This document shows positions 6,395 to 58,610 of a stretch of DNA of 64,000 bases, piece after piece. The notes under the pieces were generated by a model. The model did no database searches. It saw only the letters and a list, made by a program, of their open reading frames with translations, and was not told the DNA's origin. This DNA is from Promicromonospora thailandica. GTDB taxonomy: Bacteria > Actinomycetota > Actinomycetes > Actinomycetales > Cellulomonadaceae. Location: assembly GCF_024171955.1 (NCBI RefSeq), contig NZ_JAMTCS010000008.1, positions 62,001-126,000 of the forward strand, written 5' to 3'. Each line of letters begins with the position of its first letter. The stretch's first letter is position 1. The translations under genes and the position numbers were made by a program.

Positions 6395-8011
6395 GTGCGC
6401 GCGCCCGAGCCGTCCCGGCTGCTGTCCCTGTTCCTCGCGGTGACCGGGGGCCTGGTCCTCTGGGCCGCGTTCCCCGACGCCGGGGTCTGGCCCGCCGCGT
6501 TCGTCGCGGTCGCTGTCCTCTACTGGTCCCTCGGCCGCGACCACGCCGCCTGGAACGCCCTGGTCGGCCTGCTGTTCGGCCTCGCGTTCTTCCTGCCGCA
6601 CCTGTGGTGGGCGCACGAGTCCACCGAGACCGCGCCCTGGATCGCCGTGTCGACCGTGGAGGCCCTGTTCCTGGCCGCGTTCGGCGCCCTGTGGACCTGG
6701 GCACGCCGGGCACGGTTCCTGCGCCGCCGCGGCTGGCGGCTCGCCGCCGCGTTCGCCGTGCTGTACGTGGCCGTGGAGCAGTGGCGCGCCGAGCTCCCGT
6801 TCGGTGGCTTCCCCTGGGGCCGGCTGGCCTGGGCCATGGCCGGCGCCCCCACGGGTCGGGCCGCGTGGCTCGGCGGCACCGTCGCCGTCGGCCTCCTGGT
6901 CGCGTTCGCCGGCGCGCTGCTCGCCCTCGCCGTCGCGGCCGCGCTGCGGGCCCGGGCGGGCCGCGCCGTCGGGGCCCTGCTGCTGGGTGCCGCGGTCGCC
7001 GTCGGGCCGCTGGTGCTGCCGCTGCCCGCCTCCGCGAGCGCCGGGCCGGTGGCGACGCCGGACGGGCAGGAGGTGTACGACGCGGGCAGCGACCTGGCGG
7101 AGCGGGGCACGCTCTGGGCGGGTGCGGTGCAGGGCGACGTGGGGGAGCCGGGCCTGGGTGCGTTCGCGAACCGGGCCGAGGTGCTGAACAACCACCTGCA
7201 GGGCACGTACACGCTCGCGGAGAGCTTCGCGGGGGAGCTGGACGTGGTGCTGTGGCCGGAGAACGGCAGCGACCTGGACCCGCAGGAGGCGCCCGACGTG
7301 GCGCGGGGCCTGGACGCGGCGGCGACGGCGGTGGGGGCGCCGATCCTGGTGGGTGCGCAGGAGTTCCCGGAGACGGGTGGGCGGTACAACGTGTCGCTGC
7401 TGTGGCAGGCGGGCACCGGGGTGATCGGGCGGTACGCGAAGCAGCATCCGGCGCCGTTCGGTGAGTACATCCCGCTGCGGTCGGTGCTGCGGGTGTTCTC
7501 GGACCAGGTGGACCGGGTCACGACGGACATGATCGCGGGGGTGAACCCGCCGTTCGTGGACGTGCCGAGCCGGCTGGGGCAGGGGGACCACCGCCTGGGT
7601 ACGGTGATCTGCTTCGAGGTGGCGTACGACGAGATCGTGCGGGACGCGGTGCTCCAGGGCGCGCAGGTGCTGGTGGTGCCGACGAACAACGCGTCGTTCG
7701 GGTTCACGGCGGAGTCGACGCAGCAGCTGGCGATGTCGCGGGTGCAGGCGATCACGACGGGCCGGGCGACGGTGCAGATCTCGACGGTGGGGGTCTCGGG
7801 GGTGATCACGCCGGACGGCACGGTGGTGCGCAGCACGGGGCTGTTCACGGCGGACGAGTTCGTCGCTCACCTGCCGTTGCGGTCGTCGGTCACGCCGGCG
7901 GTGGCGGCGGGGTACTGGCCGGGGTGGGTGGTGGGCGGCCTGGCGGTGCTGCTGGTCGTCACGGGTCTGGTGACGGGCATCGCGGGCCGCCCGCGCACGG
8001 CGCAGGCATGA
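6395..8011 (+). CDS. lnt: Apolipoprotein N-acyltransferase
   Basis: Lnt transfers an acyl chain to the N-terminal cysteine of lipoproteins at the outer face of the cytoplasmic membrane. The 538-residue protein has several N-terminal membrane helices, a large extracytoplasmic nitrilase-like domain and a C-terminal membrane helix. The catalytic triad is visible as E289 (WPEN), K349 (YAKQHPAPFGEY) and C406 (ICFEVAYDE). The GTG start follows TAGGCT at 6383-6388 by 6 nt (leaderless pattern). In many actinobacteria lnt is fused to or followed by the dolichol-phosphate-mannose synthase ppm1 and then rbpA. Here rbpA follows convergently and ppm1 is absent. Confidence 0.93.
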   Translation: MRAPEPSRLLSLFLAVTGGLVLWAAFPDAGVWPAAFVAVAVLYWSLGRDHAAWNALVGLLFGLAFFLPHLWWAHESTETAPWIAVSTVEALFLAAFGALWTWARRARFLRRRGWRLAAAFAVLYVAVEQWRAELPFGGFPWGRLAWAMAGAPTGRAAWLGGTVAVGLLVAFAGALLALAVAAALRARAGRAVGALLLGAAVAVGPLVLPLPASASAGPVATPDGQEVYDAGSDLAERGTLWAGAVQGDVGEPGLGAFANRAEVLNNHLQGTYTLAESFAGELDVVLWPENGSDLDPQEAPDVARGLDAAATAVGAPILVGAQEFPETGGRYNVSLLWQAGTGVIGRYAKQHPAPFGEYIPLRSVLRVFSDQVDRVTTDMIAGVNPPFVDVPSRLGQGDHRLGTVICFEVAYDEIVRDAVLQGAQVLVVPTNNASFGFTAESTQQLAMSRVQAITTGRATVQISTVGVSGVITPDGTVVRSTGLFTADEFVAHLPLRSSVTPAVAAGYWPGWVVGGLAVLLVVTGLVTGIAGRPRTAQA

Positions 8012-8016
8012 CAGAA

Positions 8017-8052
8017 GACCGCCGCCCGGACCGTGTGGTCCGGGCGGCGGTC
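8017..8052. terminator. Bidirectional hairpin between lnt and rbpA
   Basis: A perfect 16-bp GC-rich inverted repeat (8017-8032 with 8037-8052) encloses a 4-nt GTGT loop in the 72-bp gap between the convergent lnt and rbpA genes. There is no U-tract, as is common for high-GC actinobacterial terminators. Confidence 0.85.
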
Positions 8053-8083
8053 CTCGTCGGCTGTCGCGGCGACGCCGTGGGCG

Positions 8084-8428
8084 TCAGGCCGAGCGGCGCA
8101 GCTTGCCGGCGCGCAGGAGCTCCAGGCGCTCGTCGAGCAGGTCCTCGAGCTCCTTGACGGTGCGGCGCTCCAGCAGCATGTCCCAGTGGGTGCGCTGAGG
8201 CTTGGTGGCCTTGGGCTCGGGCTTCTCGGCGTCGCGGAGCAGCGCCTCCTCGCCGCAGCGGCACTCCCAGATCGGGGGGACGTCCGCGTCGGTGGCGAAG
8301 GGCAGGATGATGGTGTGGCCGTTGGGGCAGTCGTAGTAGGCCTGGAACCGAGGGGCGAAGTCCACGCCCTCGTCGGACTCCATGCTCTTACTACCGATGC
8401 TCATACCGCGCAGGGACCGGTCGGGCAC
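8084..8428 (-). CDS. rbpA: RNA polymerase-binding protein RbpA
   Basis: RbpA binds RNA polymerase and principal sigma factors, stabilises open complexes and is near-universal in actinobacteria. The 114-residue protein contains the family signatures DRSLRG at the N-terminus and RTHWDMLLERR with a helical sigma-interaction domain near the C-terminus. C34, H38, C56 and C58 resemble the zinc ligands described for Streptomyces RbpA. I chose the GTG at 8428 over the ATG at 8404 because GGAGG lies 5 nt upstream and the extra residues align with the mycobacterial N-terminus. A SigR-like promoter lies about 55 bp upstream. Confidence 0.95.
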   Translation of the reverse strand: MPDRSLRGMSIGSKSMESDEGVDFAPRFQAYYDCPNGHTIILPFATDADVPPIWECRCGEEALLRDAEKPEPKATKPQRTHWDMLLERRTVKELEDLLDERLELLRAGKLRRSA

Positions 8429-8674: not shown

Positions 8675-8698
8675 ACAACCTGAGGGGAGCGCTCCATC

Positions 8699-9856
8699 AT
8701 GCAGTTCGGGATCTTCAGTGTCAGTGACGTGACGACGGACCCGACCACGGGCCGCACGCCGGACGACACCGAGCGGGTCCGGGCGATGCTCACGATCGCG
8801 AAGCACGCCGACCAGGCAGGTCTGGACGTGTTCGCCACCGGTGAGCACCACAACCCGCCGTTCGTGGCCTCCAGCCCGACCACGATGCTCGGCTACCTGG
8901 CGGGGGTGACCAAGGACATCACACTGTCCACGGCCACCACCCTGATCACGACCAACGACCCGGTGCGGATCGCCGAGGAGTACGCGATGCTCCAGGTGAT
9001 CTCCGAGGGCCGCATGGACCTCATGATGGGCCGCGGCAACACCGGCCCCGTCTACCCGTGGTTCGGCCAGGACATCCGCCAGGGCATCCCGCTGGCGATC
9101 GAGAACTACGCCCTGGTGCGCCGCCTGTGGACCGAGGACGTCGTGGACTGGGAGGGCAAGTTCCGCACCCCGCTGCAGGGCTTCACCGCCACCCCCCGGC
9201 CCCTGGACGGCGTGCCGCCGTTCGTGTGGCACGGCTCGATCCGCAGCCCCGAGATCGCCGAGCAGGCCGCCTACTACGGCGACGGGTTCCTGCACAACAA
9301 CATCTTCTGGCCCATCAGCCACACCAAGCAGATGATCCAGTTCTACCGTCAGCGGTTCGAGCACTACGGCCACGGCCGGGCCGACCAGGCGATCGTGGGC
9401 CTGGGCGGGCAGGCCTTCATCCGCAAGAACAGCCAGGACGCCTGGACCGAGTTCCGCCCCTACTTCGACAACGCGCCCGTCTACGGGCACGGCCCGTCCA
9501 TGGAGGACTTCACGCGCGACACGCCCCTGACCGTCGGCTCCCCGCAGCAGGTCATCGACCGCTACGGGTCGTTCATCGACGAGGTCGGCTACTACCAGCG
9601 CCAGCTGTTCCTGATCGACCACGCCGGCCTGCCCCTGAAGACCGTGCTGGAGCAGATCGACATCCTGGCCTCCGACGTCGTGCCCGAGCTGCGCAAGATC
9701 GCCGACGCCAAGCTGCCCGCCGACGTGCCGGCCAACCCGCCCACGCACGCCGAGCGCGTGGCCGCCGCCCGCGCCAAGGGCGAGACCGCCGCCACCCACG
9801 TGGGCGAGGGCGGGGACCAGTACACCGGCCGGCGCGCCGAAGAGGTCCTCTCGTGA
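8699..9856 (+). CDS. LLM-class flavin-dependent monooxygenase (CE1758-like)
   Basis: This 385-residue bacterial-luciferase-like TIM-barrel oxidoreductase starts MQFGIFSVSDV and contains GLDVFATGEHH and the FMN-site region GRGNTGPVYPWFG. Together with the downstream FMN reductase it resembles the CE1758/CE1759 pair of corynebacteria, in which one enzyme uses reduced flavin supplied by the other. The substrate is unknown. The ATG is preceded by GAGGGGAG. A perfect palindrome just upstream is a candidate operator. The next gene overlaps by a GTGA junction, so the two are translationally coupled. Confidence 0.9.
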   Translation: MQFGIFSVSDVTTDPTTGRTPDDTERVRAMLTIAKHADQAGLDVFATGEHHNPPFVASSPTTMLGYLAGVTKDITLSTATTLITTNDPVRIAEEYAMLQVISEGRMDLMMGRGNTGPVYPWFGQDIRQGIPLAIENYALVRRLWTEDVVDWEGKFRTPLQGFTATPRPLDGVPPFVWHGSIRSPEIAEQAAYYGDGFLHNNIFWPISHTKQMIQFYRQRFEHYGHGRADQAIVGLGGQAFIRKNSQDAWTEFRPYFDNAPVYGHGPSMEDFTRDTPLTVGSPQQVIDRYGSFIDEVGYYQRQLFLIDHAGLPLKTVLEQIDILASDVVPELRKIADAKLPADVPANPPTHAERVAAARAKGETAATHVGEGGDQYTGRRAEEVLS

Positions 9857-48110: not shown

Positions 48111-49142
48111 ATGGTCGCTCCCCCGCGCCTTGAGCGCATCACTGTCGCAGAAGCCGTCCGTCGTTATCTGGCGGCGGTCGAGGTCGAGACGATCCGTGGT
48201 GTCCTGTCTCCTGCCACGGCGCGCAGCTATTCGCGTGACGTGGCGGAGTTCGGGCGGTTGGCGGGTCGTGACCGGGTGCTGGACGACGTGACGGGTGCGG
48301 ACGTGGACAGTGTGCTGGTGCGGTACCAGTCGGCGCCGGACGCGCGGTACGCGGATCCGGGGCGCAAGGCTGGTCCGGGGCGCAGCACGGCGACGGTGAA
48401 CCGGTTCCGGCAGTCGGTCACGCGGTTCTTCGGGTATGCGGCGCGGGAGTGCTGGGTGCAGGCGGACCCGATGCAGTGGGCGGCTCCGCCGGCGAAGGTG
48501 CGGGGTTCGTTGCGGACGGCGCGGACGGCGTTGTCGGCGGGTGCGGCGCGGAGCCTGCTGGCCACTGCCCCGGCGCAGGCTCCGGCGCGCACGGACCAGG
48601 ACCTGGCGGCGCGGGACCGGTTGGTGGTGGCTCTGCTGCTGGTGCTGGGTCCGCGGGTGTCGGAGCTGGCGCGGGCGGACGTGGCGGACGTGACGCGGGA
48701 GCCGGGGCATGCGTCGTGGCGTATCCGGGGCAAGGGTGGCAGTACGCGGACGGTGACGTTGTCGCCGCCGTTGTCGCGGGCGCTGGACGACTACCTGGCG
48801 GTGCTGCGTCCCACGTTGGCGGCCCGGCGACCGCAGGACGAGGACGCGCAGCGGGCGCTGCTGCTGTCGTGGCGGGGCCGGCGGATCGACACGCAGGCGA
48901 TCCGGGCGCTGCTGGCGCGTGCGGTGGCGCGGATGCCCGCGCCGTACCAGCGGGAGGCGACGCCGCACGCGCTGCGGCACACGACGGCGACGCTGCTGGT
49001 CGCCGACGGGTGGGACGTGAAGGTCGTGGCGGAGCTGCTGGGTCACGCGTCGATCGCGACCACGGGGGTCTACCTGGACCGGATCGAGGGTGAGCTGGCG
49101 GCCGCGATCCGGTCCCACCCGCTGGGGGCGGCCATGGAGTAA
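48111..49142 (+). CDS. Tyrosine recombinase (XerC/D-like)
   Basis: The 343-residue recombinase has a SAM-like core-binding domain (about residues 10-110) and a catalytic domain. Active-site residues are in LGPRVSELARAD (R), KGGSTRTV (K), PHALRHTTA (H and R), LGHAS (H) and VYLDR (Tyr nucleophile). It is shorter than phage integrases with AP2 arms and lacks neighbouring mobile genes. ATG follows TAGGGT (48098-48103) by 7 nt. It could be a resident Xer-type or an element-borne enzyme. Confidence 0.87.
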   Translation: MVAPPRLERITVAEAVRRYLAAVEVETIRGVLSPATARSYSRDVAEFGRLAGRDRVLDDVTGADVDSVLVRYQSAPDARYADPGRKAGPGRSTATVNRFRQSVTRFFGYAARECWVQADPMQWAAPPAKVRGSLRTARTALSAGAARSLLATAPAQAPARTDQDLAARDRLVVALLLVLGPRVSELARADVADVTREPGHASWRIRGKGGSTRTVTLSPPLSRALDDYLAVLRPTLAARRPQDEDAQRALLLSWRGRRIDTQAIRALLARAVARMPAPYQREATPHALRHTTATLLVADGWDVKVVAELLGHASIATTGVYLDRIEGELAAAIRSHPLGAAME

Positions 49143-49247: not shown

Positions 49248-50192
49248 ATGACGGGGCCGACGACCACCGTCCTGGTGACGGGCGCCGGTGGCCCCGCGGG
49301 CCGGGCTCTGGGCGCGCAGCTCGCCGCCCGGGCGGCCGCGAGCGCCGGTGAGGGTCGGGTGGAGTGGGTGGGGGTGGACATCGTGCCGGTGGTGGATGCG
49401 TCCTACCCGGTGACGGACCGCGCACCGCGAGCTGATGCGTGGGAGTACGCGACCGGGATGCGGGACCTGGTGGTGAGGTATGGCCCGGACCTGGTGATCC
49501 CGACGGTGCAGGACGAGCTGGCGCAGGTCGCGGTCCTGGCGCAGGCGCTGGACGGGGGCGCGCGCGGGCGGGTGTTCCCGGAGGCCGTGGGCGGGGTGCT
49601 GACGGCGGACCCGGGGCCTGCGGCGCTCGCGGCGGACAAGCTGCTGACGATGCTGGCGCTGGAGGGGGCGGGGGTCCCGGTCCCCCGGTTCGCGCTGCCG
49701 ACGGACTTCGCCGGTGTCGCCGAGGCGCTGGCGTGGGCGCGGGGGCCTGTGGTGGTCAAGCCGCGGGTGTCGCGTGGCGGTCGCGGGGTGCGGCTGGTGG
49801 AGTCGGCGGACGACCTGCCCGGGCCGGACGCGTGGACGGACCTGGACGCGTCGTGGATCGTACAGACGTTCGCTCCGGGTACGGAGTACTGCCCGCAGGT
49901 GTACCGCAGGCGCTCGGGCGGGGCCCTCGCCGTGGTGCTGGAGAAGACGGTGCTGAAGCAGGGGCGGGTCGGCAACGCGGCGGCCGTCGTCCGCCCGCGG
50001 GAGGGCACGCTGCCCGACGTCGAGGAGGTGGCACGGGCCGCTGTCGCCGCGCTCGGGCTGACGGGGCCCACCGACCTGGACGTGCGCCGCGACGCCACCG
50101 GCGCGCCCGTGGTGCTCGAGGTCAACGGGCGGTTCGGTGCGAACAGCGCCCGCGCGCCCGAGCTGCTCGCCGCGGTGCTGGACCGCACATGA
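49248..50192 (+). CDS. ATP-grasp domain protein
   Basis: This 314-residue protein has an N-terminal Rossmann-like pre-ATP-grasp domain (VLVTGAGGPAGRALG), then an ATP-grasp fold. Features are AADKLLTMLALEGAGVPVPRF, VVVKPRVSRGGRGVRLVE, EYCPQVYR and the metal-binding VVLEVNGRFGANSARAPEL. ATP-grasp enzymes join a carboxylate to an amine or thiol through an acyl-phosphate. The ATG at 49248 lies inside a longer frame. It overlaps the GT2 gene by ATGA, forming an operon, so it may modify or activate a glycan precursor (inference). Confidence 0.82.
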   Translation: MTGPTTTVLVTGAGGPAGRALGAQLAARAAASAGEGRVEWVGVDIVPVVDASYPVTDRAPRADAWEYATGMRDLVVRYGPDLVIPTVQDELAQVAVLAQALDGGARGRVFPEAVGGVLTADPGPAALAADKLLTMLALEGAGVPVPRFALPTDFAGVAEALAWARGPVVVKPRVSRGGRGVRLVESADDLPGPDAWTDLDASWIVQTFAPGTEYCPQVYRRRSGGALAVVLEKTVLKQGRVGNAAAVVRPREGTLPDVEEVARAAVAALGLTGPTDLDVRRDATGAPVVLEVNGRFGANSARAPELLAAVLDRT

Positions 50193-51481
50193 ACGACGTC
50201 CTGACCGCGGTGACGGTCGTGTTCGGCGTGACCATCCTGCTGGTCGGCGTCGGACGGTTGCTGATCGTGCCGTGCGCCCTGTGGTTCGAGGCCCGCCACC
50301 GGCGCCTCCCGGCCGGGACCCCGCCGCACGCCGGCACGATCTTCGACCCGCCGCCGGCCGCGCCGCCGTCGATCTCCGTGATCGTGCCCGCCTACAACGA
50401 GGGCGTCGTGCTCGACGCGTGCGTGCGGTCCATCGCCCGCAGCGACTACCCCGACTTCGAGATCGTCTGCGTCGACGACGGCTCCACCGACGACACCTAC
50501 GCCCAGCTGCGGGCGCTCGCGGACGAGCTGCCCCGGGTACGAGCCCTGACACAGCCCAACGCGGGCAAGGGGGCCGCCCTGAACCGGGGCGTGCGGCACG
50601 CGCGCGGCGAGCTCCTCGTGCTGGTCGACGCCGACGGCGTGTTCCGCCCGGACACGCTGCGCGAGATGGTGCGGGCCTTCGGCGACCCCCGCGTGGGCGC
50701 GGTGTGCGGCGACGACCGGACCGTGAACCTCGACCGGGTCCAGACGCGTTACCTGGCGCTGGTCAGCCACGTCGGTACGGGGCTGGTGCGTCGCGCCCTG
50801 GACGTGCTGCGCTGCCTGCCCATCGTCTCGGGGAACACGGGCGCGTTCCGGCGTGACGTGCTGGAGCGCACCGGTCCCCTGCGTGAGGACACCGTGGGTG
50901 AGGACCTGGAGCTCACGTGGCGGGTCTACCGCGCCGGGTACCGGGTCGCGTTCGCGCCCCGCGCCCTGGTGCACGCCGAGTCGCCCTCCACCCTGCGCGG
51001 CCTGTGGAAGCAGCGGGTGCGGTGGGCGCGCGGACTGCTGCAGACCGTGGGCCACCACCGGGACATGGTGGGCAACCCTCGCTACGGCATCTTCGGCCCC
51101 TACCTGGCCCTGACCGTGGCCACCCAGGTGCTCCTGCCCGTGGTCCAGGTCGCCGCGTTCGTGGTGCTGGCCGTCCTGGCGGCCCTCGGCGACACCGCCA
51201 CCCTGCCCGGCACCCTCTGGGAGGTGGTCCTGTTCACCGGCCTGGCCCTGTCGGTGGTGCTGCTGCTGGTCGCCGTGCTGCTGGACCGGTCACCGGGCGA
51301 CCTGCGGCACGTGTGGACCCTGCCGCTGTGGCCGTTCTACTCCGCGATGATGAGCCTGGTCATGCTCCGCGCGATCTGGCTCGAGCTGCGCCGCGCCGAC
51401 AACCGCTGGAACAAGCTCGACCGCACCGGCACCATCTCCGTGGATACCACCGCCGCACCGCCCACCCGGCGGCGACCGTGA
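50189..51481 (+). CDS. Membrane glycosyltransferase family 2 (PgaC/IcaA-like)
   Basis: The 430-residue enzyme has an N-terminal membrane helix, a cytoplasmic GT-A domain (about 60-290) and C-terminal membrane helices (about 310-410). Processive-synthase motifs are VPAYNEG, VDDGSTDDT, VDADGVF, GEDLELTWR (catalytic D) and QRVRWARG (QxxRW). This is the architecture of poly-N-acetylglucosamine and related synthases. Start codon overlaps the ATP-grasp stop (ATGA), and its own stop overlaps the next start (GTGA). It probably makes an envelope polysaccharide; the sugar is unknown. Confidence 0.9.
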   Translation: MNDVLTAVTVVFGVTILLVGVGRLLIVPCALWFEARHRRLPAGTPPHAGTIFDPPPAAPPSISVIVPAYNEGVVLDACVRSIARSDYPDFEIVCVDDGSTDDTYAQLRALADELPRVRALTQPNAGKGAALNRGVRHARGELLVLVDADGVFRPDTLREMVRAFGDPRVGAVCGDDRTVNLDRVQTRYLALVSHVGTGLVRRALDVLRCLPIVSGNTGAFRRDVLERTGPLREDTVGEDLELTWRVYRAGYRVAFAPRALVHAESPSTLRGLWKQRVRWARGLLQTVGHHRDMVGNPRYGIFGPYLALTVATQVLLPVVQVAAFVVLAVLAALGDTATLPGTLWEVVLFTGLALSVVLLLVAVLLDRSPGDLRHVWTLPLWPFYSAMMSLVMLRAIWLELRRADNRWNKLDRTGTISVDTTAAPPTRRRP

Positions 51482-52692
51482 GCCGCCCCACGCGCCGCAC
51501 GGCAGCCACCCTGTCCGTGCTGGCAGCCCTGTCCGGCTGCACCGGCGACCCCGTACCACCCACCGTGGACCGCCCCGTGGTGCGCGCCGACCACGTGCAG
51601 TCGGTGAGTCTCGGCATCGAGGACGTGATCGACACCGAGCAGGACTGGGACGCGGTCCGCGAGCGCCTCGACGCCGCGCACGTCAACATGGTCAGCCTCG
51701 CGGCCGGGCGGGTCGAGTTCGTCGCGTTCGACTGGCAGGCGCACCCGGACGCGGTGGCCGAGTCCGGCGGCGACCACCTGGCCGACGCGATCGACCAGCT
51801 CGCCCAGGGCCCGGACGGTGAGCTGCGGCGGGTGGACCTGCTGATCGACGCGCTCGTGCCCCGGTGGATCGAGGAGGACCCGTCGGTCGGTGGTGTCGGG
51901 GAGGACGGTTCCCGGTCGAGGTACGCGCCGTCGGCCACCGCGATCCACGACGGGCCCGTGGGCGACCGGTACGTGGAGCTCGTCGAGGAGCTCGCCCGCC
52001 GGTACGAGCCCGACCAGATCACGTTCACCGAGCTCAAGTTCGACGACGAGACCTTCGGCGACGACGACGCGGCCCTGTACCGGCGGATGACCGGTGCCAC
52101 GGACTGGCCGCGGGAGGCCGACGGCAGCATCGACCACGACGCCCCCGAGATCGGGCAGTGGCGCTCGCAGGTGCTGGCCGACTTCCTGGACCGGACGTCC
52201 GCGGTGCTGGACGACGTGGCCGAGGAGACCGGCAAGCGCACCGCGCTGGGGATGGACGCGCTGATCAACTGGGCGGACCCGGCGGCGGGGGTGCCGGCCG
52301 CGGGCCTGAGCTACCCGCTGCTGGCCCGGTCGGCGGACCGTGTGGTGCTGTGGGGGTATCTCGGCATCGGGGACCACTCCCCGCAGGAGCTCGAGCAGGT
52401 GACCGCGGCGCTGGCCCGGGCGGCCACCGACGTGCCGATGGACCGGTTCATGGTGTCGGTGGGGGTGTGGGACCACGGGGCGCCGTCCGGAGCGATCTCG
52501 CCCGAGCTGATGGCCGACGGCGTGCGCGCCGCGAGCACCCACGGGATCACGGCGGTCAACGTCACGCCGTTCACGCTCATGAGCCCGGAGCACTGGGCCG
52601 CCCTGGAGCGGGTGTGGACGCGGCTGCCGCCGACGAGCCCGTCCTCGGTCACTCCGTCGGGCTCTCCGTCGGGCTCTGGACCGGCAGGGTGA
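51478..52692 (+). CDS. Lipoprotein with a glycoside-hydrolase-like barrel
   Basis: This 404-residue protein has a type II signal peptide with lipobox LSGC (Cys about residue 21), so it is surface-anchored. The mature part looks like a TIM-barrel glycosidase-like domain (WDAVRERLDAAHVNMVSL, ITFTELKFDDETFG, LGMDALINW, VVLWGYLGIGDHS). Function is unknown, but position after a PgaC-like synthase recalls PgaB-type hydrolases. A 12-bp tandem repeat ends the gene. Its last 44 bp overlap the convergent histidine-kinase gene. Confidence 0.78.
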   Translation: MSRPTRRTAATLSVLAALSGCTGDPVPPTVDRPVVRADHVQSVSLGIEDVIDTEQDWDAVRERLDAAHVNMVSLAAGRVEFVAFDWQAHPDAVAESGGDHLADAIDQLAQGPDGELRRVDLLIDALVPRWIEEDPSVGGVGEDGSRSRYAPSATAIHDGPVGDRYVELVEELARRYEPDQITFTELKFDDETFGDDDAALYRRMTGATDWPREADGSIDHDAPEIGQWRSQVLADFLDRTSAVLDDVAEETGKRTALGMDALINWADPAAGVPAAGLSYPLLARSADRVVLWGYLGIGDHSPQELEQVTAALARAATDVPMDRFMVSVGVWDHGAPSGAISPELMADGVRAASTHGITAVNVTPFTLMSPEHWAALERVWTRLPPTSPSSVTPSGSPSGSGPAG

Positions 52693-53335
52693 TCGTGACC
52701 CGGGTGCCCGCACCGGGCGGGTGGTCCACGGCCACGCTGCCGCCGTGCGCGGCCACGGTGGCCGCCACGACCGGCAGGCCGAGCGCCACCCCGCGGACCG
52801 GTCCCGTACCGCCGAGCTGGCCGGCCGGCACGGGCGGGCCTGTGTCGGTCACCTCGACCACGACCCACCGGTGGTCGGAGCCGTCGCGCACACCGTCCGC
52901 CGGCGGCTCGACCCGCAACGTCACGGTGCCCCCGCGCGGTGTGCGGCGCACCGCGGCACCCAGGAGGCTGTCGATCGCGAGCGCCAGCACCTCCGGGTCC
53001 CCGGACAGCCGCACCTGGTCGGGTATCAGGGGCACCAGCGCCACCCCGGCGGTGCGGGCCGCCGGGGTCAGGTCGGTCACGCAGCCGCTCGCCAGCGCCG
53101 CCAGGTCGGTGTCGGCACGGTCCGGCTCGAACGTGCCGGCGGCCAGCCGCGCACTGACCAGCAGCTCCTCCACCAGGCGCAGCATCCGCCGCCCGTTGCG
53201 CTCGATCACCTCCACGTGCCGCCGCTGCTCCTCGCTCAGGTCGCTTACCCGCAGCAGCTGCGCGTACCCGATGACGGCGCTCAGCGGCGAGCGCAGCTCG
53301 TGACCGACCACACCGAGATCGTCGCCGCCGCTCAC
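52649..53335 (-). CDS. Short histidine-kinase-like protein with degenerate ATP-binding site
   Basis: This 228-residue protein has no sensor. It has a dimerisation/phospho-acceptor helix with H12 (GHELRSPLS) and an HATPase-like domain (about 110-218). The N-box reads IDSLLGAAV, with Asn replaced by Ala at the metal-binding position. The G1 box reads DTGPPVP, lacking its second Gly. It may therefore be a phosphotransfer or receiver-binding protein rather than an active kinase. The GTG start overlaps the REC-PIG-L stop, so it is co-translated with it. Confidence 0.8.
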   Translation of the reverse strand: MSGGDDLGVVGHELRSPLSAVIGYAQLLRVSDLSEEQRRHVEVIERNGRRMLRLVEELLVSARLAAGTFEPDRADTDLAALASGCVTDLTPAARTAGVALVPLIPDQVRLSGDPEVLALAIDSLLGAAVRRTPRGGTVTLRVEPPADGVRDGSDHRWVVVEVTDTGPPVPAGQLGGTGPVRGVALGLPVVAATVAAHGGSVAVDHPPGAGTRVTITLPVQSPTESPTE

Positions 53336-54420
53336 GCGTGCCTCTCCTCGACGGCGTGGCCCGCGTGCCCGCGGGCCACCGCCGGGGGGACAGGCGTCAG
53401 CCGCATCGTGGACCGCACCGTCTCCAGCGGCTCCGCGTACCGCCCCTGCGTGAACCGCGACCAGTACCGTGCCGTGGCCCGCACGATGTCCTCGTCCATG
53501 TAGTCCCGGTGCGCCTGCGACACGAAAGCGCGCAGCATCCGCAGCTTCGTCTCCAGGTGCTCGTCGATGTCCACGAACCGGTTCGGCTGGTAGGCGATCG
53601 TCGCCGACGGGCTCTGGAAGCACGCCAGGTCCGCGACCGCCCGCGACGCGACCTGCACCGCCTGGTGCACCGCCCGGTGGTCCTGGTGCCGGTCGTTGTT
53701 GCTGTGCGTGTACACCTGGTCCGGCCGGTACTCCCGGATCACCTCCTCCACCGCGGTGATCGGCCCCGACGCCGGGTCCAGGTGCGTGTCCTGGAACCCC
53801 AGGTGGATCAGCTGCGCCCCCACGATCTGCGCCGCCTCCTGCGACTCCCGCTGCCGCGCCACCGCGTCACCACCCACCGCGCCGCCCGACATCGTCAGGA
53901 TCACCAGCCGGTCCCCGCTGGCGGCGTGCGCCGCAAGCGTCCCGCCCACGCCGATCTCGACGTCGTCCGGGTGGGCACCGACCGCCAGCACCGTCCGGCT
54001 GCGCGCCGCGGCCCGGCGGTCGCGGCCGCGGCGCAGGAGCGTGGTGGCCCGCTCGACCAGCAGGTCGACGTCGACGGGCTTGACCAGGAAGTCGTCGACG
54101 TCGCCGCGCAGGGCGCCCACGGCGTAGTCCACCCGGTTGTGCGCGGTCAGGATGATGACGGGCACGCCCACGGCCAGGCGGTGCACCTCGGGCAGGATCT
54201 GCAGGCCCGACCGGCCGGGCAGCTCCACGTCGATGACCACGAGGTCGAACTTCGCGTTCTGCAGGGCCGCCAGGGCGCTGTCCGCGTCCGTGGCCAGGAC
54301 GACGTCGACCCCCGCGTGCTGGGCCAGGACCGTGCGCGTGAACTCGCCCGCGTCCGGGTCGTCCTCCACCACCAGCGCGGACCAGGAGTGGGACGACCCG
54401 CCGGCCCCGTCGTCGGTCAT
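53332..54420 (-). CDS. Response-regulator receiver fused to a PIG-L (LmbE) deacetylase
   Basis: The 362-residue protein joins a receiver domain (about 14-125; acidic D20/D21, phospho-acceptor D64, T92, K114) to a PIG-L/LmbE deacetylase domain (about 142-340). The deacetylase has the zinc motif AHPDDVE (149-155) and HSNNDRHQDHRA (H239, H245, H248). PIG-L enzymes remove acetyl from GlcNAc-containing molecules (for example MshB). Phosphorylation may therefore switch the deacetylase. GGAGGAGG precedes the ATG. It is coupled to the kinase-like gene and converges on the ATP-grasp/GT2/lipoprotein operon. Confidence 0.88.
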   Translation of the reverse strand: MTDDGAGGSSHSWSALVVEDDPDAGEFTRTVLAQHAGVDVVLATDADSALAALQNAKFDLVVIDVELPGRSGLQILPEVHRLAVGVPVIILTAHNRVDYAVGALRGDVDDFLVKPVDVDLLVERATTLLRRGRDRRAAARSRTVLAVGAHPDDVEIGVGGTLAAHAASGDRLVILTMSGGAVGGDAVARQRESQEAAQIVGAQLIHLGFQDTHLDPASGPITAVEEVIREYRPDQVYTHSNNDRHQDHRAVHQAVQVASRAVADLACFQSPSATIAYQPNRFVDIDEHLETKLRMLRAFVSQAHRDYMDEDIVRATARYWSRFTQGRYAEPLETVRSTMRLTPVPPAVARGHAGHAVEERHA

Positions 54421-54620: not shown

Positions 54621-55028
54621 ATGACCCGGCGGATCCTGGTGGTCGACGACGACGACGCGATCCGCGACGTCGTGCGCACCGGCCTGGAGGTCATCGCCGG
54701 GTGGCGGGTCCAGCTCGCCACCCACGGCGCCGAGGCCCTGCGGCTGTGCGCCGCCGACCCGCCCGACGCCGTCCTGCTGGACGTGATGATGCCCACCATG
54801 GACGGCCCCACCACCTACGCCCGCCTGCAGGACGACGCCCGCACCCGCGACGTGCCCGTCATCTTCCTGACCGCGAAGGTGCAACCCGCCGAACGACGCC
54901 AGTACGAGGACCTCGGCGCCGCCGGCGTGCTCGCCAAGCCGTTCGACCCGCTCACCCTGCCCGCCCAGATCGCGACCCTGCTCGGCTGGCCGCCGGACCC
55001 GCCGTCGAGCCCGCCCCAGGACGGCTGA
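54621..55028 (+). CDS. Stand-alone receiver-domain protein (CheY-like)
   Basis: The 135-residue protein is a single receiver domain with D10-D12 acidic cluster, phospho-acceptor D54 (LLDVMMP), T84 and K106 (LAKPFD), ending with a Pro-rich tail. With no output domain, it probably relays phosphate or binds a target protein. ATG at 54621 has no good ribosome-binding site; an in-frame ATG at 54588 is an alternative start. It lies 200 bp from the divergent REC-PIG-L gene and 37 bp before the hybrid kinase. Confidence 0.82.
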   Translation: MTRRILVVDDDDAIRDVVRTGLEVIAGWRVQLATHGAEALRLCAADPPDAVLLDVMMPTMDGPTTYARLQDDARTRDVPVIFLTAKVQPAERRQYEDLGAAGVLAKPFDPLTLPAQIATLLGWPPDPPSSPPQDG

Positions 55029-55065: not shown

Positions 55066-58050
55066 ATGGGGCCGCGGCGCGACGCTGCGCAGTCACGCAG
55101 CAGTTTCACACTGTGGTGCTGGATCTCCGGCACCGCGCTGCTCCTGCTCGTCGTCGTCCTGTCCAGCCCCCTGACCCAGGCCGTGCGCGAACAGGTCGCC
55201 ACCACGGCCATCGCCGCGGCGGGCATCGTCGCCGCCTTCAGCTGCTGGCACCGCGCCGCCCGGTCCACCGGCCGGCGCCGCCGCGCCTGGGGAGCCCTCG
55301 CCCTCGGCGGGCTCGTCGGCCTGGCCGGCAACGTCTGGGCCACCCTGGCCGGCAACCCCGAGACCGGCGACGTCGCCTACATCGCCGCCCTCCTGCTCGG
55401 CGTCGTCGGACTGTCCCTGTTCCCCGCCGTGCGCCCCCGCGGCCGCGAGCTGGTCCGCATGCTGCTCGACAGCACCGTCGTCGGCGGCTCCGTGCTGTAC
55501 ATCGCGCTGTTCGCCCTCGCGCAGCAGGCCGGCACCCCCCAGGGACAACCCACCCTCACCGCCTACACGCTGCCCGTCGTCGACGCCCTCCTGGCCACCC
55601 TCGCCGTCCAGCTCATGACGCGCTCCGGCACCGCCGAACGCGTCCCCCTCGTGCTGGCCGGCAGCGGGTTCGTGCTCTACGCCGTCGCCGACGTCGCGTT
55701 CGCCCTGCTGTCCGCCCAGGGCGACTTCACCTTCGGCAGCCCCGTCGACGCCGGCTGGGCCGGCGGCTACGTCGCCATCGCCGTCGCCGCACGCCACCCC
55801 GCCGCCTCCGGCAGCCCCGTCGTCGACCGCCCCGGCCCCGGCACCCCCGTGCTCGGCACCGTCGTCACCTTCCTGCTGTTCTTCGCCGCCGCCCTGGTCC
55901 GTGTCGTCCAGGCCAGCGACCAGACCCTGCCCTGGATCGCCAACACCCTCTGGGTCGCCGTCCTGGTCGCCGTCGTCACCCGGCAGATCCTCGTCGTCGT
56001 CGACAACGAGTCCCTCCGCCACGGCCTCGAACGCCGCGTCCAGGACCGCACCGCCCAGCTGCGCTCCCTGGCCAGCGAACGCGAACGCACCCTCGAGTCC
56101 GTCGCCGACGGCATCTACGGCGTCGACACCACCGGCCGCGTCACCTTCGTCAACGCCGCGGCCGCCTACACCCTCGGCGTCACCGCCACCGACCTCGTCG
56201 GGCACGACGCCCACGCCACCTTCCACGCCCCCGGACCCGACGGCACCCCCCTGCCCCCCGAAGGCTGCTACATCACCGAAGCCCTCCGCGACGGCATCAC
56301 CGTCACCGCCGAGCAGGACCTCTACGTGCGCCCCGACGGCAAAGAGGTCCCCGTCGAGGTCACCGCCAGCCCCCTGCGCGACGACGACACCATCCGCGGC
56401 GCCGTCGTCGTCTTCCGCGACGTCACCGAACGCCGCGAGGTCGAACGCATCAAGGACGAGTTCGTCTCCGTCGTCAGCCACGAGCTGCGCACCCCGCTGA
56501 CCGCCATCCGCGGCGCCCTCACCCTCCTGGACAGCGACGCCCTCGCCGACTCCCCCGAGCAGAGCACCCGCATGATCCACATCGCCCTGACCAGCAGCGA
56601 ACGCCTCAGCCGCCTCGTCGACGACATCCTCGACACCGAACGCCTCGAAGCCGGCACCACCCAGCTCCACCTCACCGACCACCCCCTGGACACCCTCGTC
56701 ACCGCCGCCGTCGACCAGGTCTCCGTGCTCGCCGACGACGCCGGCATCACCCTCCACGCCGCCCGTTGCCCCGAGACCGTCCGCGCCGACGCCGAACGCA
56801 TCGTCCAGACCCTGACCAACCTCCTGGGCAACGCCGTCCGCTTCTCCCCCGCCGGCAGCACCGTCCACGTCACCGCCACCCCCGTCGGCGACCTCGTCGA
56901 GATCCGCGTCGACGACCAGGGCCGCGGCATCCCGCCCGACAAGCTCGAGACCATCTTCCGCCGCTTCGAACAGGTCGACGCCTCCGACACCCGCGAACGC
57001 GGCGGCTCCGGACTCGGCCTCACCATCGCCCGCAGCATCGTCGAGGGCCACGGCGGCCGCCTCTGGGCTGTCAGCGACGGCGAGGGCACCGGCTCCAGCT
57101 TCCGCTTCACCCTCCACCGCGCCGCGACCCACCCCGAACCCACGACCCCACCCCACGACACCGCCGGCCGCCCCGGCCGGGCCGACCAGGTCATCGTCGT
57201 CGACGACGACCCCTACGTCGTCGACGTGCTGCGCAGCGTCCTCGAGCAACGCGGCTACGACGTCGTCGGCCACACCGACGGCCAGGCCGCCCTCACCACC
57301 GTCCGGCACCACCCGCCCGCCGCCGTCGTCCTCGACCTCGCCATGCCCGGCACCACCGGCACCGAGGTCCTCAGCGACCTGCGCCAGTCCGCCGCCACCG
57401 CCGACGTCCCCGTCGTCATCCTGTCCGCCACCCGCCCCCACGACGCCCTCGAGACCGCGGCGCTCGCGGACGACTGGCTGGTCAAGCCCGTGGACCCGGA
57501 CCGCATCGCCGAGACGGTGCGGGACGTCATCCGCCGCCAGCCGCACCACGGCCGCGTCCTGGTCGTGGAGGACCACCAGGACCTGCGCACGGTCGTGGCC
57601 ACGGTGCTGCGCAACGCGGGTCTGGTCGTCACGACCGTGAGCACCGTGCGCGACGCGCGGGCCGCCCTGGCGCACGGCGCCGACCCGGACGTCGTGGTGC
57701 TCGACCTGACGCTGCCCGACGGCGACGGCCGCGACCTGGTGGCCGACCTGCGGCGCGACGGCCGCCTGCGCCGGGTGCCGCTGGTCGTCTACACGGGCAC
57801 CGAGGTCAGCACCGGGGAACGGGACGACCTGCGCCTGGGCAGCACCGTGTTCCTGACCAAGGGCCGCGCGGCACCCGACGCCGTGCTGCGCAGCGTGCTC
57901 GACCTGCTGGACGCCGCGACCGGGCGCGGCACCGAGGACTCCGAAGACATCGGGGACACCGAGGACCGGGCCGCGCCGCACGGGCCCGCCGACCCGCCGG
58001 AGCCGGACCGGCACCCACCCGACCCCCGACCGAGGACGAGGAACCGATGA
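55066..58050 (+). CDS. Hybrid sensor histidine kinase with two receiver domains
   Basis: The 994-residue kinase has about eight N-terminal membrane helices (to about residue 310) and a PAS domain (about 345-460). HisKA follows with H472 (VSHELRTPL), then an HATPase with an intact N-box (TNLLGNAVRF) and DDQGRGIP. Two receiver domains come next, with D757 (LDLAMPG) and D880 (LDLTLPD), and a disordered acidic tail. Multiple receivers allow internal phosphorelay. ATG follows TACGCT (55053-55058) by 7 nt. It is coupled by ATGA to arginine decarboxylase and probably works with the receiver protein upstream. Confidence 0.9.
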   Translation: MGPRRDAAQSRSSFTLWCWISGTALLLLVVVLSSPLTQAVREQVATTAIAAAGIVAAFSCWHRAARSTGRRRRAWGALALGGLVGLAGNVWATLAGNPETGDVAYIAALLLGVVGLSLFPAVRPRGRELVRMLLDSTVVGGSVLYIALFALAQQAGTPQGQPTLTAYTLPVVDALLATLAVQLMTRSGTAERVPLVLAGSGFVLYAVADVAFALLSAQGDFTFGSPVDAGWAGGYVAIAVAARHPAASGSPVVDRPGPGTPVLGTVVTFLLFFAAALVRVVQASDQTLPWIANTLWVAVLVAVVTRQILVVVDNESLRHGLERRVQDRTAQLRSLASERERTLESVADGIYGVDTTGRVTFVNAAAAYTLGVTATDLVGHDAHATFHAPGPDGTPLPPEGCYITEALRDGITVTAEQDLYVRPDGKEVPVEVTASPLRDDDTIRGAVVVFRDVTERREVERIKDEFVSVVSHELRTPLTAIRGALTLLDSDALADSPEQSTRMIHIALTSSERLSRLVDDILDTERLEAGTTQLHLTDHPLDTLVTAAVDQVSVLADDAGITLHAARCPETVRADAERIVQTLTNLLGNAVRFSPAGSTVHVTATPVGDLVEIRVDDQGRGIPPDKLETIFRRFEQVDASDTRERGGSGLGLTIARSIVEGHGGRLWAVSDGEGTGSSFRFTLHRAATHPEPTTPPHDTAGRPGRADQVIVVDDDPYVVDVLRSVLEQRGYDVVGHTDGQAALTTVRHHPPAAVVLDLAMPGTTGTEVLSDLRQSAATADVPVVILSATRPHDALETAALADDWLVKPVDPDRIAETVRDVIRRQPHHGRVLVVEDHQDLRTVVATVLRNAGLVVTTVSTVRDARAALAHGADPDVVVLDLTLPDGDGRDLVADLRRDGRLRRVPLVVYTGTEVSTGERDDLRLGSTVFLTKGRAAPDAVLRSVLDLLDAATGRGTEDSEDIGDTEDRAAPHGPADPPEPDRHPPDPRPRTRNR

Positions 58051-58610
58051 CGCAGCCCCTGACCATCCGTGTGAGCACCGGCACCGGCACCGGACGCACA
58101 CCCCTGGCCGCGTTCGACGCCGCGCTGGCCTCCGCCGGCGTCAGCGACTTCAACCTGGTGCGGCTGAGCTCCATCGTCCCGCCCGGCAGCCAGGTGCTGA
58201 CCGTCGAGGGGACCGACCAGCTGCGCGGCGGCCACGGGGACGTGCTGCTCTGCGTGTACGCGCGGGCCCACACCTCCCTGCCCGGGCACGAGGCCTGGGC
58301 CGGGGTGGCGTGGTCGCGGCACGAGGACGGCAGCGGCGCGGGCCTGTTCGTGGAGCACGAGGGCCCCTCGCACGAGCAGGTCAACGCCGACCTGACCCAC
58401 AGCCTGCAGGACCTGTCGGCCACGCGCGGCGACCGGTACCGCCCGGAGGGCCGCCAGGTCACCGGCATCACGTGCGTCACCCTGCCGGTCTGCGCCGTGG
58501 TCGTGGCGACGTTCCGCCGGATGGGCTGGGAACGCGGCTGGGAACAGGGCTGGGAACAGAGCCGGGACCGAGCAGCCGGGGAGCAGGGCGGGGCGTCTCG
58601 TGGCCGCTGA
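58047..58610 (+). CDS. Pyruvoyl-dependent arginine decarboxylase
   Basis: This enzyme makes agmatine from arginine and generates its pyruvoyl cofactor by self-cleavage. The 187-residue protein has the hallmark LVRLSSIVPPG, with cleavage expected between S41 and S42, and later VEGTDQLRGG, GVAWSRHED and CVTLPVCAVVVATF. Size fits the PvlArgDC family. The C-terminal tail contains a 12-bp tandem repeat coding for WERG/WEQG. Its start overlaps the hybrid-kinase stop, and its end overlaps the next gene by 11 nt, so all three are coupled. Confidence 0.87.
   Translation: MTQPLTIRVSTGTGTGRTPLAAFDAALASAGVSDFNLVRLSSIVPPGSQVLTVEGTDQLRGGHGDVLLCVYARAHTSLPGHEAWAGVAWSRHEDGSGAGLFVEHEGPSHEQVNADLTHSLQDLSATRGDRYRPEGRQVTGITCVTLPVCAVVVATFRRMGWERGWEQGWEQSRDRAAGEQGGASRGR
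58524..58571. repeat. 12-bp tandem repeat in the arginine decarboxylase tail
   Basis: Units ggctgggaacgc, ggctgggaacag, ggctgggaacag and a diverged fourth copy span 58524-58571 and keep the frame, encoding Trp-Glu repeats. Confidence 0.85.

Follow-up and report, generated by a model that had tools for sequence, protein, structure and literature searches.

A receiver–PIG-L fusion conserved across bacterial phyla as a candidate response regulator with a predicted N-deacetylase output

We describe a protein, here called REC–PIG-L, in which a receiver domain is joined to a PIG-L domain and whose gene lies among glycan genes in a 64,000-nucleotide stretch of Promicromonospora thailandica DNA (hereafter the window). 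Our best reading of this protein is that phosphorylation controls an N-deacetylase that acts in glycan synthesis, since the fusion is widespread, both of its active sites are intact, and glycan genes neighbor it and co-occur with it. Specifically, REC–PIG-L would be a response regulator with a predicted cytoplasmic zinc N-deacetylase as its output, serving a poly-N-acetylglucosamine-like exopolysaccharide machine, an assignment to which the sequences lead us to give slightly better than an even chance.

Domain architecture of REC–PIG-L

The initial annotation of this DNA had proposed a complete receiver and a complete PIG-L domain in one frame and had called for a domain search, which bears the proposal out. 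The gene is a single uninterrupted open reading frame with an ATG start and GGAGG just 5′ of it, and both Pfam matches, Response_reg over residues 16–124 (89.5 bits against a cut-off of 30.2) and PIG-L (PF02585) over residues 145–258 (93.9 bits against 28.2), lie far above the curated cut-offs.

53332–54420, minus strand: REC–PIG-L fusion, 362 residues; receiver 16–124 and PIG-L 145–258 (Pfam), structured to about residue 336
54046–54375, minus strand: receiver domain, approximately residues 16–125, with the phospho-acceptor D64 (Pfam and alignment)
53410–53994, minus strand: PIG-L domain, approximately residues 143–337, with AHPDD (149–153) and HQDH (245–248) (Pfam, model and PDB alignment)

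The receiver carries the key residues previously listed for it, namely the acidic pair D20 and D21, the phospho-Asp D64, the Thr/Ser position T92 and the Lys K114. The zinc site had been assigned to AHPDD together with H239, H245 and H248, and this assignment held in part. In alignments with BC1534 (2ixd) and BshB (6p2t), residues H150, D152, D153, H245 and H248 fall on the HxDD and HxxH active-site motifs, but H239 lies opposite a proline in both structures and outside the classic zinc site. We take H150, D153 and H248 to have metal roles and D152 and H245 to have catalytic ones.

An AlphaFold2 model computed from an alignment of 44 rows (the window protein and 43 loci) reached a pLDDT of 91 and a pTM of 0.72, the latter leaving the predicted arrangement of the domains only moderately certain. 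In this model the last helix of the receiver (118–138) reaches the first PIG-L strand (143–148). A rigid helical coupling of receiver to PIG-L finds no support in the 77-sequence alignment described below, where the K114–A149 spacing ranges from 27 to 35 residues (35 being commonest, in 35 of the 77).

The top Foldseek matches of the model are BC1534 (2ixd), Pyrococcus diacetylchitobiose deacetylases and BshB, with MshB also among the matches, and the closest PDB match by sequence is BshB (6p2t), named N-acetyl-alpha-D-glucosaminyl L-malate deacetylase. REC–PIG-L is like the PIG-L/LmbE deacetylases (PF02585; BC1534, BshB, MshB and the archaeal diacetylchitobiose deacetylase) in its fold and its HxDD and HxxH motifs. 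It differs from these matches, which are chains of about 220–310 residues aligned over the PIG-L part, in having a receiver in front and in being encoded by a glycan-locus gene. In terms of location, hydropathy analysis finds no hydrophobic segment in the window protein, which is consistent with a cytoplasmic enzyme; 7 of the 77 aligned sequences have one 19-residue stretch above the hydropathy cut-off, mostly within a domain.

Conservation and distribution

A scan of species genomes returned at least 537 confirmed relatives, the best 80 of 537 being taken as loci; the scan patterns were drawn from both domains, so that these 80 are biased toward full-length fusions. The window protein was aligned with 76 of the 80 (77 sequences in all), L069, L077, L078 and L083 being left out as short or as having a stop inside the tblastn stretch. 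D64, K114 and T/S92 are present in 77 of 77 aligned copies, D20 in 74 and D21 in 73, and H150, D152, D153, H245 and H248, as well as H239, are each found in all 77. This shared invariance of D64, K114 and the catalytic residues indicates that the same proteins have retained both the site of phosphorylation and that of catalysis.

Among the objections foreseen by the initial annotation were a frameshift and a lack of conservation in related genomes, and neither of these holds. The identical in-frame fusion, with both domains, recurs in all 77 aligned sequences from several phyla, and it is stop-free in 6 more genomes from the genus, two of which (G006 and G007, the source of loci L004 and L005) are already among the 77. 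A sequencing error that joins two genes thus has a negligible probability, and we regard a frameshift or chance joining as ruled out.

Among Actinomycetota, relatives occur in Promicromonospora (79% identity), Cellulomonas (53–60%), Microbacterium, Leifsonia, Blastococcus, Nakamurella and Thermoleophilia; Pseudomonadota contribute Marinicella, Kangiella, a Burkholderiales bin and others, and further relatives belong to Myxococcota, Bacteroidota, Rhodothermota and Gemmatimonadota. Many of the non-actinobacterial relatives are metagenome bins. The distribution is patchy: the REC–PIG-L profile matches 7 of 13 genomes of the genus, at least 62 of 200 in the family sample (G155 and G158 over the PIG-L part alone) and at least 6 of 396 in the phylum sample (3 of them covering the receiver too), the family and phylum counts being lower bounds because 11 and 5 candidates per genome, respectively, were scored. 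Plasmid records searched by tblastn at E 1e-40 contained no match. In a tree of PIG-L domains, placing the 44 receiver-bearing rows takes 4 changes, whereas shuffles take 8.4. By this measure the receiver-bearing rows cluster, which is the sole use made here of a tree that was built by a quick method, has a very long outgroup branch, and labels as lone PIG-L proteins both L096, whose receiver has decayed, and L099, which is closely related to L094.

Some relatives lack an intact receiver.

L094, 8027–9049: receiver-less PIG-L protein with three hydrophobic segments
L095, PIG-L at 7741–8367, minus strand: receiver-less PIG-L protein with three hydrophobic segments
L084, 7815–8507, minus strand: decaying paralog without a receiver, reading HPGD where others read HPDD
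L096, PIG-L stretch 8680–9333, minus strand: diverged relative with some motif loss in both domains

Decay such as that of L096 and the L084 paralog would be expected if REC–PIG-L were mainly a phosphate sink or signaling partner and its deacetylase domain a vestige. The presence of all five active-site residues in every aligned copy makes this highly improbable.

L094 and L095 are family members that keep the PIG-L/ATP-grasp/GT2 set and have their hydrophobic segments at the N terminus, in place of the receiver. Either front end, a receiver or a membrane anchor, would fit an enzyme that works close to the synthase on the cytoplasmic side of the membrane. This replacement looks as though positioning the enzyme could fall to one front end or the other, and it gives the strongest argument for the idea that the receiver is a docking or localization module, and not an allosteric switch, that on phosphorylation or mere binding brings a constitutively active PIG-L domain to the kinase or the synthase at the membrane; the variable length of the receiver–PIG-L linker points the same way. 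Pure docking, however, would need neither D64 nor K114, and from their invariance phosphorylation itself seems to be under selection. We consider docking unlikely, if well short of dismissible, and continue to favor phosphorylation control of the deacetylase.

Genomic neighborhood and co-occurrence with glycan genes

The genes surrounding REC–PIG-L in the window are as follows.

49248–50192, plus strand: ATP-grasp ligase (ATP-grasp_3; Pfam)
50189–51481, plus strand: GT2 synthase, of processive type by a QRxRW-like motif; best model PgaC_IcaA
51478–52692, plus strand: lipoprotein with an LSGC lipobox (by eye) and a predicted TIM barrel, the fold resembling the PgaB/BpsB glycoside-hydrolase domain
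52649–53335, minus strand: HK1, with HisKA and HATPase_c but lacking a sensor domain; retains the H-box HELRSPL, with degeneration at the N-box Asn and the G1 box
54621–55028, plus strand: stand-alone receiver with no output domain (Pfam)
55066–58050, plus strand: hybrid histidine kinase with six hydrophobic N-terminal segments, PAS, HisKA, HATPase_c and two receivers; N and G boxes intact
58047–58610, plus strand: pyruvoyl-dependent arginine decarboxylase family protein, with a 4-bp overlap with the hybrid kinase gene

As first described, REC–PIG-L faces a glycan-synthase operon: the ATP-grasp, GT2 and lipoprotein genes (49248–52692, plus strand), each overlapping the next by 4 bp, converge on it. 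It had also been described as coupled to a kinase-like gene, and the coupling stands, as the start of HK1 (53335–53333) overlaps the stop of REC–PIG-L (53334–53332) in GTGA; HK1 is probably not the kinase, however, having lost ATP-binding residues. The lone receiver, the hybrid kinase and the arginine decarboxylase protein stand divergent from REC–PIG-L.

This association extends well beyond the window. Within 6 kb of REC–PIG-L in the best 80 of the at least 537 relatives, an ATP-grasp gene is found in 68 loci, a GT2 in 63, both in 59 and either in 72, alongside a histidine kinase in 64, a PHP-domain protein in 51, a TPR-repeat protein in 9 and a lipoprotein of the window type in 6. When the count is restricted to loci that extend 6 kb or more in each direction (n = 58), 46 have both ATP-grasp and GT2 and 50 have a histidine kinase. 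The commonest order in Actinomycetota is REC–PIG-L, ATP-grasp, PHP, GT2, receiver and kinase, and several Gammaproteobacteria have REC–PIG-L, ATP-grasp, GT2 and the TPR-repeat protein, with a divergent hybrid kinase. A histidine kinase is absent within 6 kb in 16 of the 80 loci, and 8 have neither ATP-grasp nor GT2 (L019, L041, L051, L054, L056, L058, L071 and L078, with less than 1 kb downstream in L019). In the Microbacteriaceae loci L058, L068 and L071, REC–PIG-L is accompanied by a kinase and by a gene of carbon-nitrogen hydrolase type, without ATP-grasp; a GT2 is absent from L058 and L071, and L068 has a weak distant match only.

As a rough base rate, taken for ATP-grasp and GT2 from the window genome alone, the window ATP-grasp finds no second copy above 50 bits in its own genome and the PgaC model finds 4 stretches above 50 bits, so that chance neighbors of both kinds would be rare; the neighborhood census itself used several queries per family.

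Co-occurrence in whole genomes agrees with this picture. In the genus, the same 7 of 13 genomes hold REC–PIG-L and the window-type GT2; the GT2 match crosses one TGA in G005 and G010, and G004 has the two genes on separate contigs. In the family sample (n = 200), the GT2 subtype was found in 51 of the 62 genomes with a REC–PIG-L match, against 0 of 138 without one (Fisher p 3.8e-37, a value that overstates independence, as the genomes are related). A further caution is that the GT2 profile was built from GT2s adjoining REC–PIG-L. The GT2 is missing at the cut-off in the other 11 of the 62, and the total of 51 in 200 is a lower bound, 7 candidates per genome having been scored in the GT2 search. 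Two of the 51, G159 and G089, have their full-length REC–PIG-L apart from the GT2, which in G089 adjoins a PIG-L fragment on another contig.

Alternatively, the substrate of the PIG-L domain could be a small precursor, for instance an amino sugar linked to a nucleotide or a lipid, or some other GlcNAc conjugate, with the ATP-grasp enzyme acylating the freed amine and the receiver throttling precursor supply instead of deacetylation of the polymer. This is a substantial possibility, though one we place below even, and it overlaps with our best explanation, so that the likelihoods given here are not exclusive shares of a whole. It would agree with the position of the ATP-grasp gene, immediately downstream of REC–PIG-L on the same strand in 60 of the 80 loci, with the lack of a hydrophobic segment, and with the top PDB sequence match to BshB and the fold match to MshB, both of which act on small GlcNAc conjugates. 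The diacetylchitobiose deacetylases, also among the closest fold matches, act on oligomers and argue against it.

Relation to poly-N-acetylglucosamine systems

With respect to the polymer, the window GT2 matches PgaC_IcaA best among NCBIfam models, at 187.8 bits and below the cut-off of 422.3. No other stretch of its genome is as PgaC-like (187.6 bits against 77.5 for the next), and PgaC_IcaA was also the top model for all four GT2s tried from other loci (121–131 bits). The lipoprotein, searched as 51481–52692 (one codon short of its GTG start), has no Pfam match over the cut-off, GHL10 matching weakly in 4 of 11 members, and its profile found no match up to E 1 among solved structures, so its fold was taken from prediction. 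The model (pLDDT 79) has the PgaB/BpsB hydrolase domain as its first six Foldseek hits and whole PgaB as the seventh, at 16–19% identity; the match to 4p7q (E 1.5e-12, TM 0.60/0.66, 17% identity) is a match of fold only, made with a predicted model. As the lipoprotein occurs in only 6 of the 80 loci, it says nothing for the others.

The window thus resembles the PNAG systems PgaABCD and IcaADBC in pairing a PgaC-like GT2 with a lipoprotein whose predicted fold is like the PgaB hydrolase, and 9 of the 80 relatives add a TPR-repeat protein whose second half resembles, by eye only, an outer-membrane barrel. Unlike in those systems, the predicted deacetylase here is a PIG-L domain under a receiver, without a signal or membrane segment, whereas the known PNAG deacetylase works outside the cytoplasm; an ATP-grasp enzyme is added, often with a PHP protein as well, and the GT2 falls below the PgaC cut-off. 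No Polysacc_deac_1 deacetylase of the PgaB type is encoded on the window contig (C8), the three copies in the genome lying on C5 and C6. Membership in the canonical Pga/Ica class was rejected on the GT2 score and on this absence. From its gene content the locus would work like a poly-GlcNAc system yet lacks some defining features of one, and we do not class it as such.

Kinases and the source of phosphate

HK1 is doubtful as a normal kinase, its N and G boxes being degenerate: in the window copy the H-box HELRSPL is kept, and SLLGAAV and DTGPPVP stand at the N-box and the G1 box. It still matches HATPase_c in Pfam (55.9 bits). Among genus mates, the HK1 copies of L086 and L090 are eroded too, that of L004 has lost the N-box Asn and kept G1, and that of L005 keeps both; the kinases beside REC–PIG-L in L006, L020, L029 and L034 are intact. 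The gene looks like that of a former kinase on its way to a role in phosphotransfer or as a phosphatase.

On its motifs, HK1 may be such a phosphotransfer or phosphatase protein, and by analogy it may pass on or remove phosphate as ChpT and Spo0B do. ChpT and Spo0B are histidine-kinase-like phosphotransferases, and HK1 is like them in its retained H-box and degenerate ATP-binding domain, but differs in that its HATPase_c score persists and in that kinases near several other REC–PIG-L genes are intact. With its boxes intact (NLLGNAV and GSGLGL), the hybrid kinase is what we infer to be the source of phosphate for REC–PIG-L.

Proposed mechanism and relation to known regulators

In the mechanism that we propose, D64 would receive its phosphate from a membrane sensor kinase, which in the window would be the hybrid kinase, perhaps acting via the HK1 histidine, and this phosphorylation would alter the activity or the placement of the PIG-L domain. 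The PIG-L domain would in turn strip N-acetyl groups from GlcNAc-type units of a precursor or nascent chain on the cytoplasmic side, and the freed amine may be left charged or be capped by the ATP-grasp ligase. Signaling could thereby modify how the polymer is charged or exported without new transcription. More tentatively still, and with less confidence than in a small-precursor substrate, we suggest an undescribed and widespread class of response regulators that edits polysaccharide, in which a phosphorelay, possibly via an ATP-dead HK1, switches a cytoplasmic PIG-L, ATP-grasp can cap the amines freed in a poly-GlcNAc-like polymer or its precursor, and surface charge is set by the signaling itself, without an extracytoplasmic deacetylase.

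Response regulators with enzymatic output domains include CheB and PleD. REC–PIG-L shares their layout, with an enzyme domain preceded by an N-terminal receiver that has every phosphorylation residue, and is unlike them in that its predicted output is a PIG-L deacetylase. If the proposed reading is true, it would add a new enzyme class to the known two-component outputs and a direct post-translational route to setting exopolysaccharide N-acetylation, in a polysaccharide locus that spans Actinomycetota to Pseudomonadota. In known poly-GlcNAc systems, N-acetylation governs export and adhesion.

The component parts are of known kinds, and their union as a response regulator with a conserved glycan locus was not found named in the literature searched. 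Specifically, neither the receiver–PIG-L fusion nor its glycan locus is named in the titles, abstract openings and passages covered by that search, which left out most subscription journals and bioRxiv, and passages of PMC12471899, PMC1183210 and PMC12613277 do not name the fusion. In PMC12613277, a pig-L gene of C. difficile has a separate neighboring response-regulator gene.

Flanking genes

On the side of the hybrid kinase, the arginine decarboxylase protein also adjoins that kinase in the genus mates L004, L005, L086, L087 and L090, the L085 stretch ending within the hybrid kinase. At the opposite end, a tyrosine-recombinase gene (48114–49142) lies just upstream of the ATP-grasp gene and is retained in several genus mates at 88–90% identity; it may be a housekeeping gene that marks the edge of the locus.
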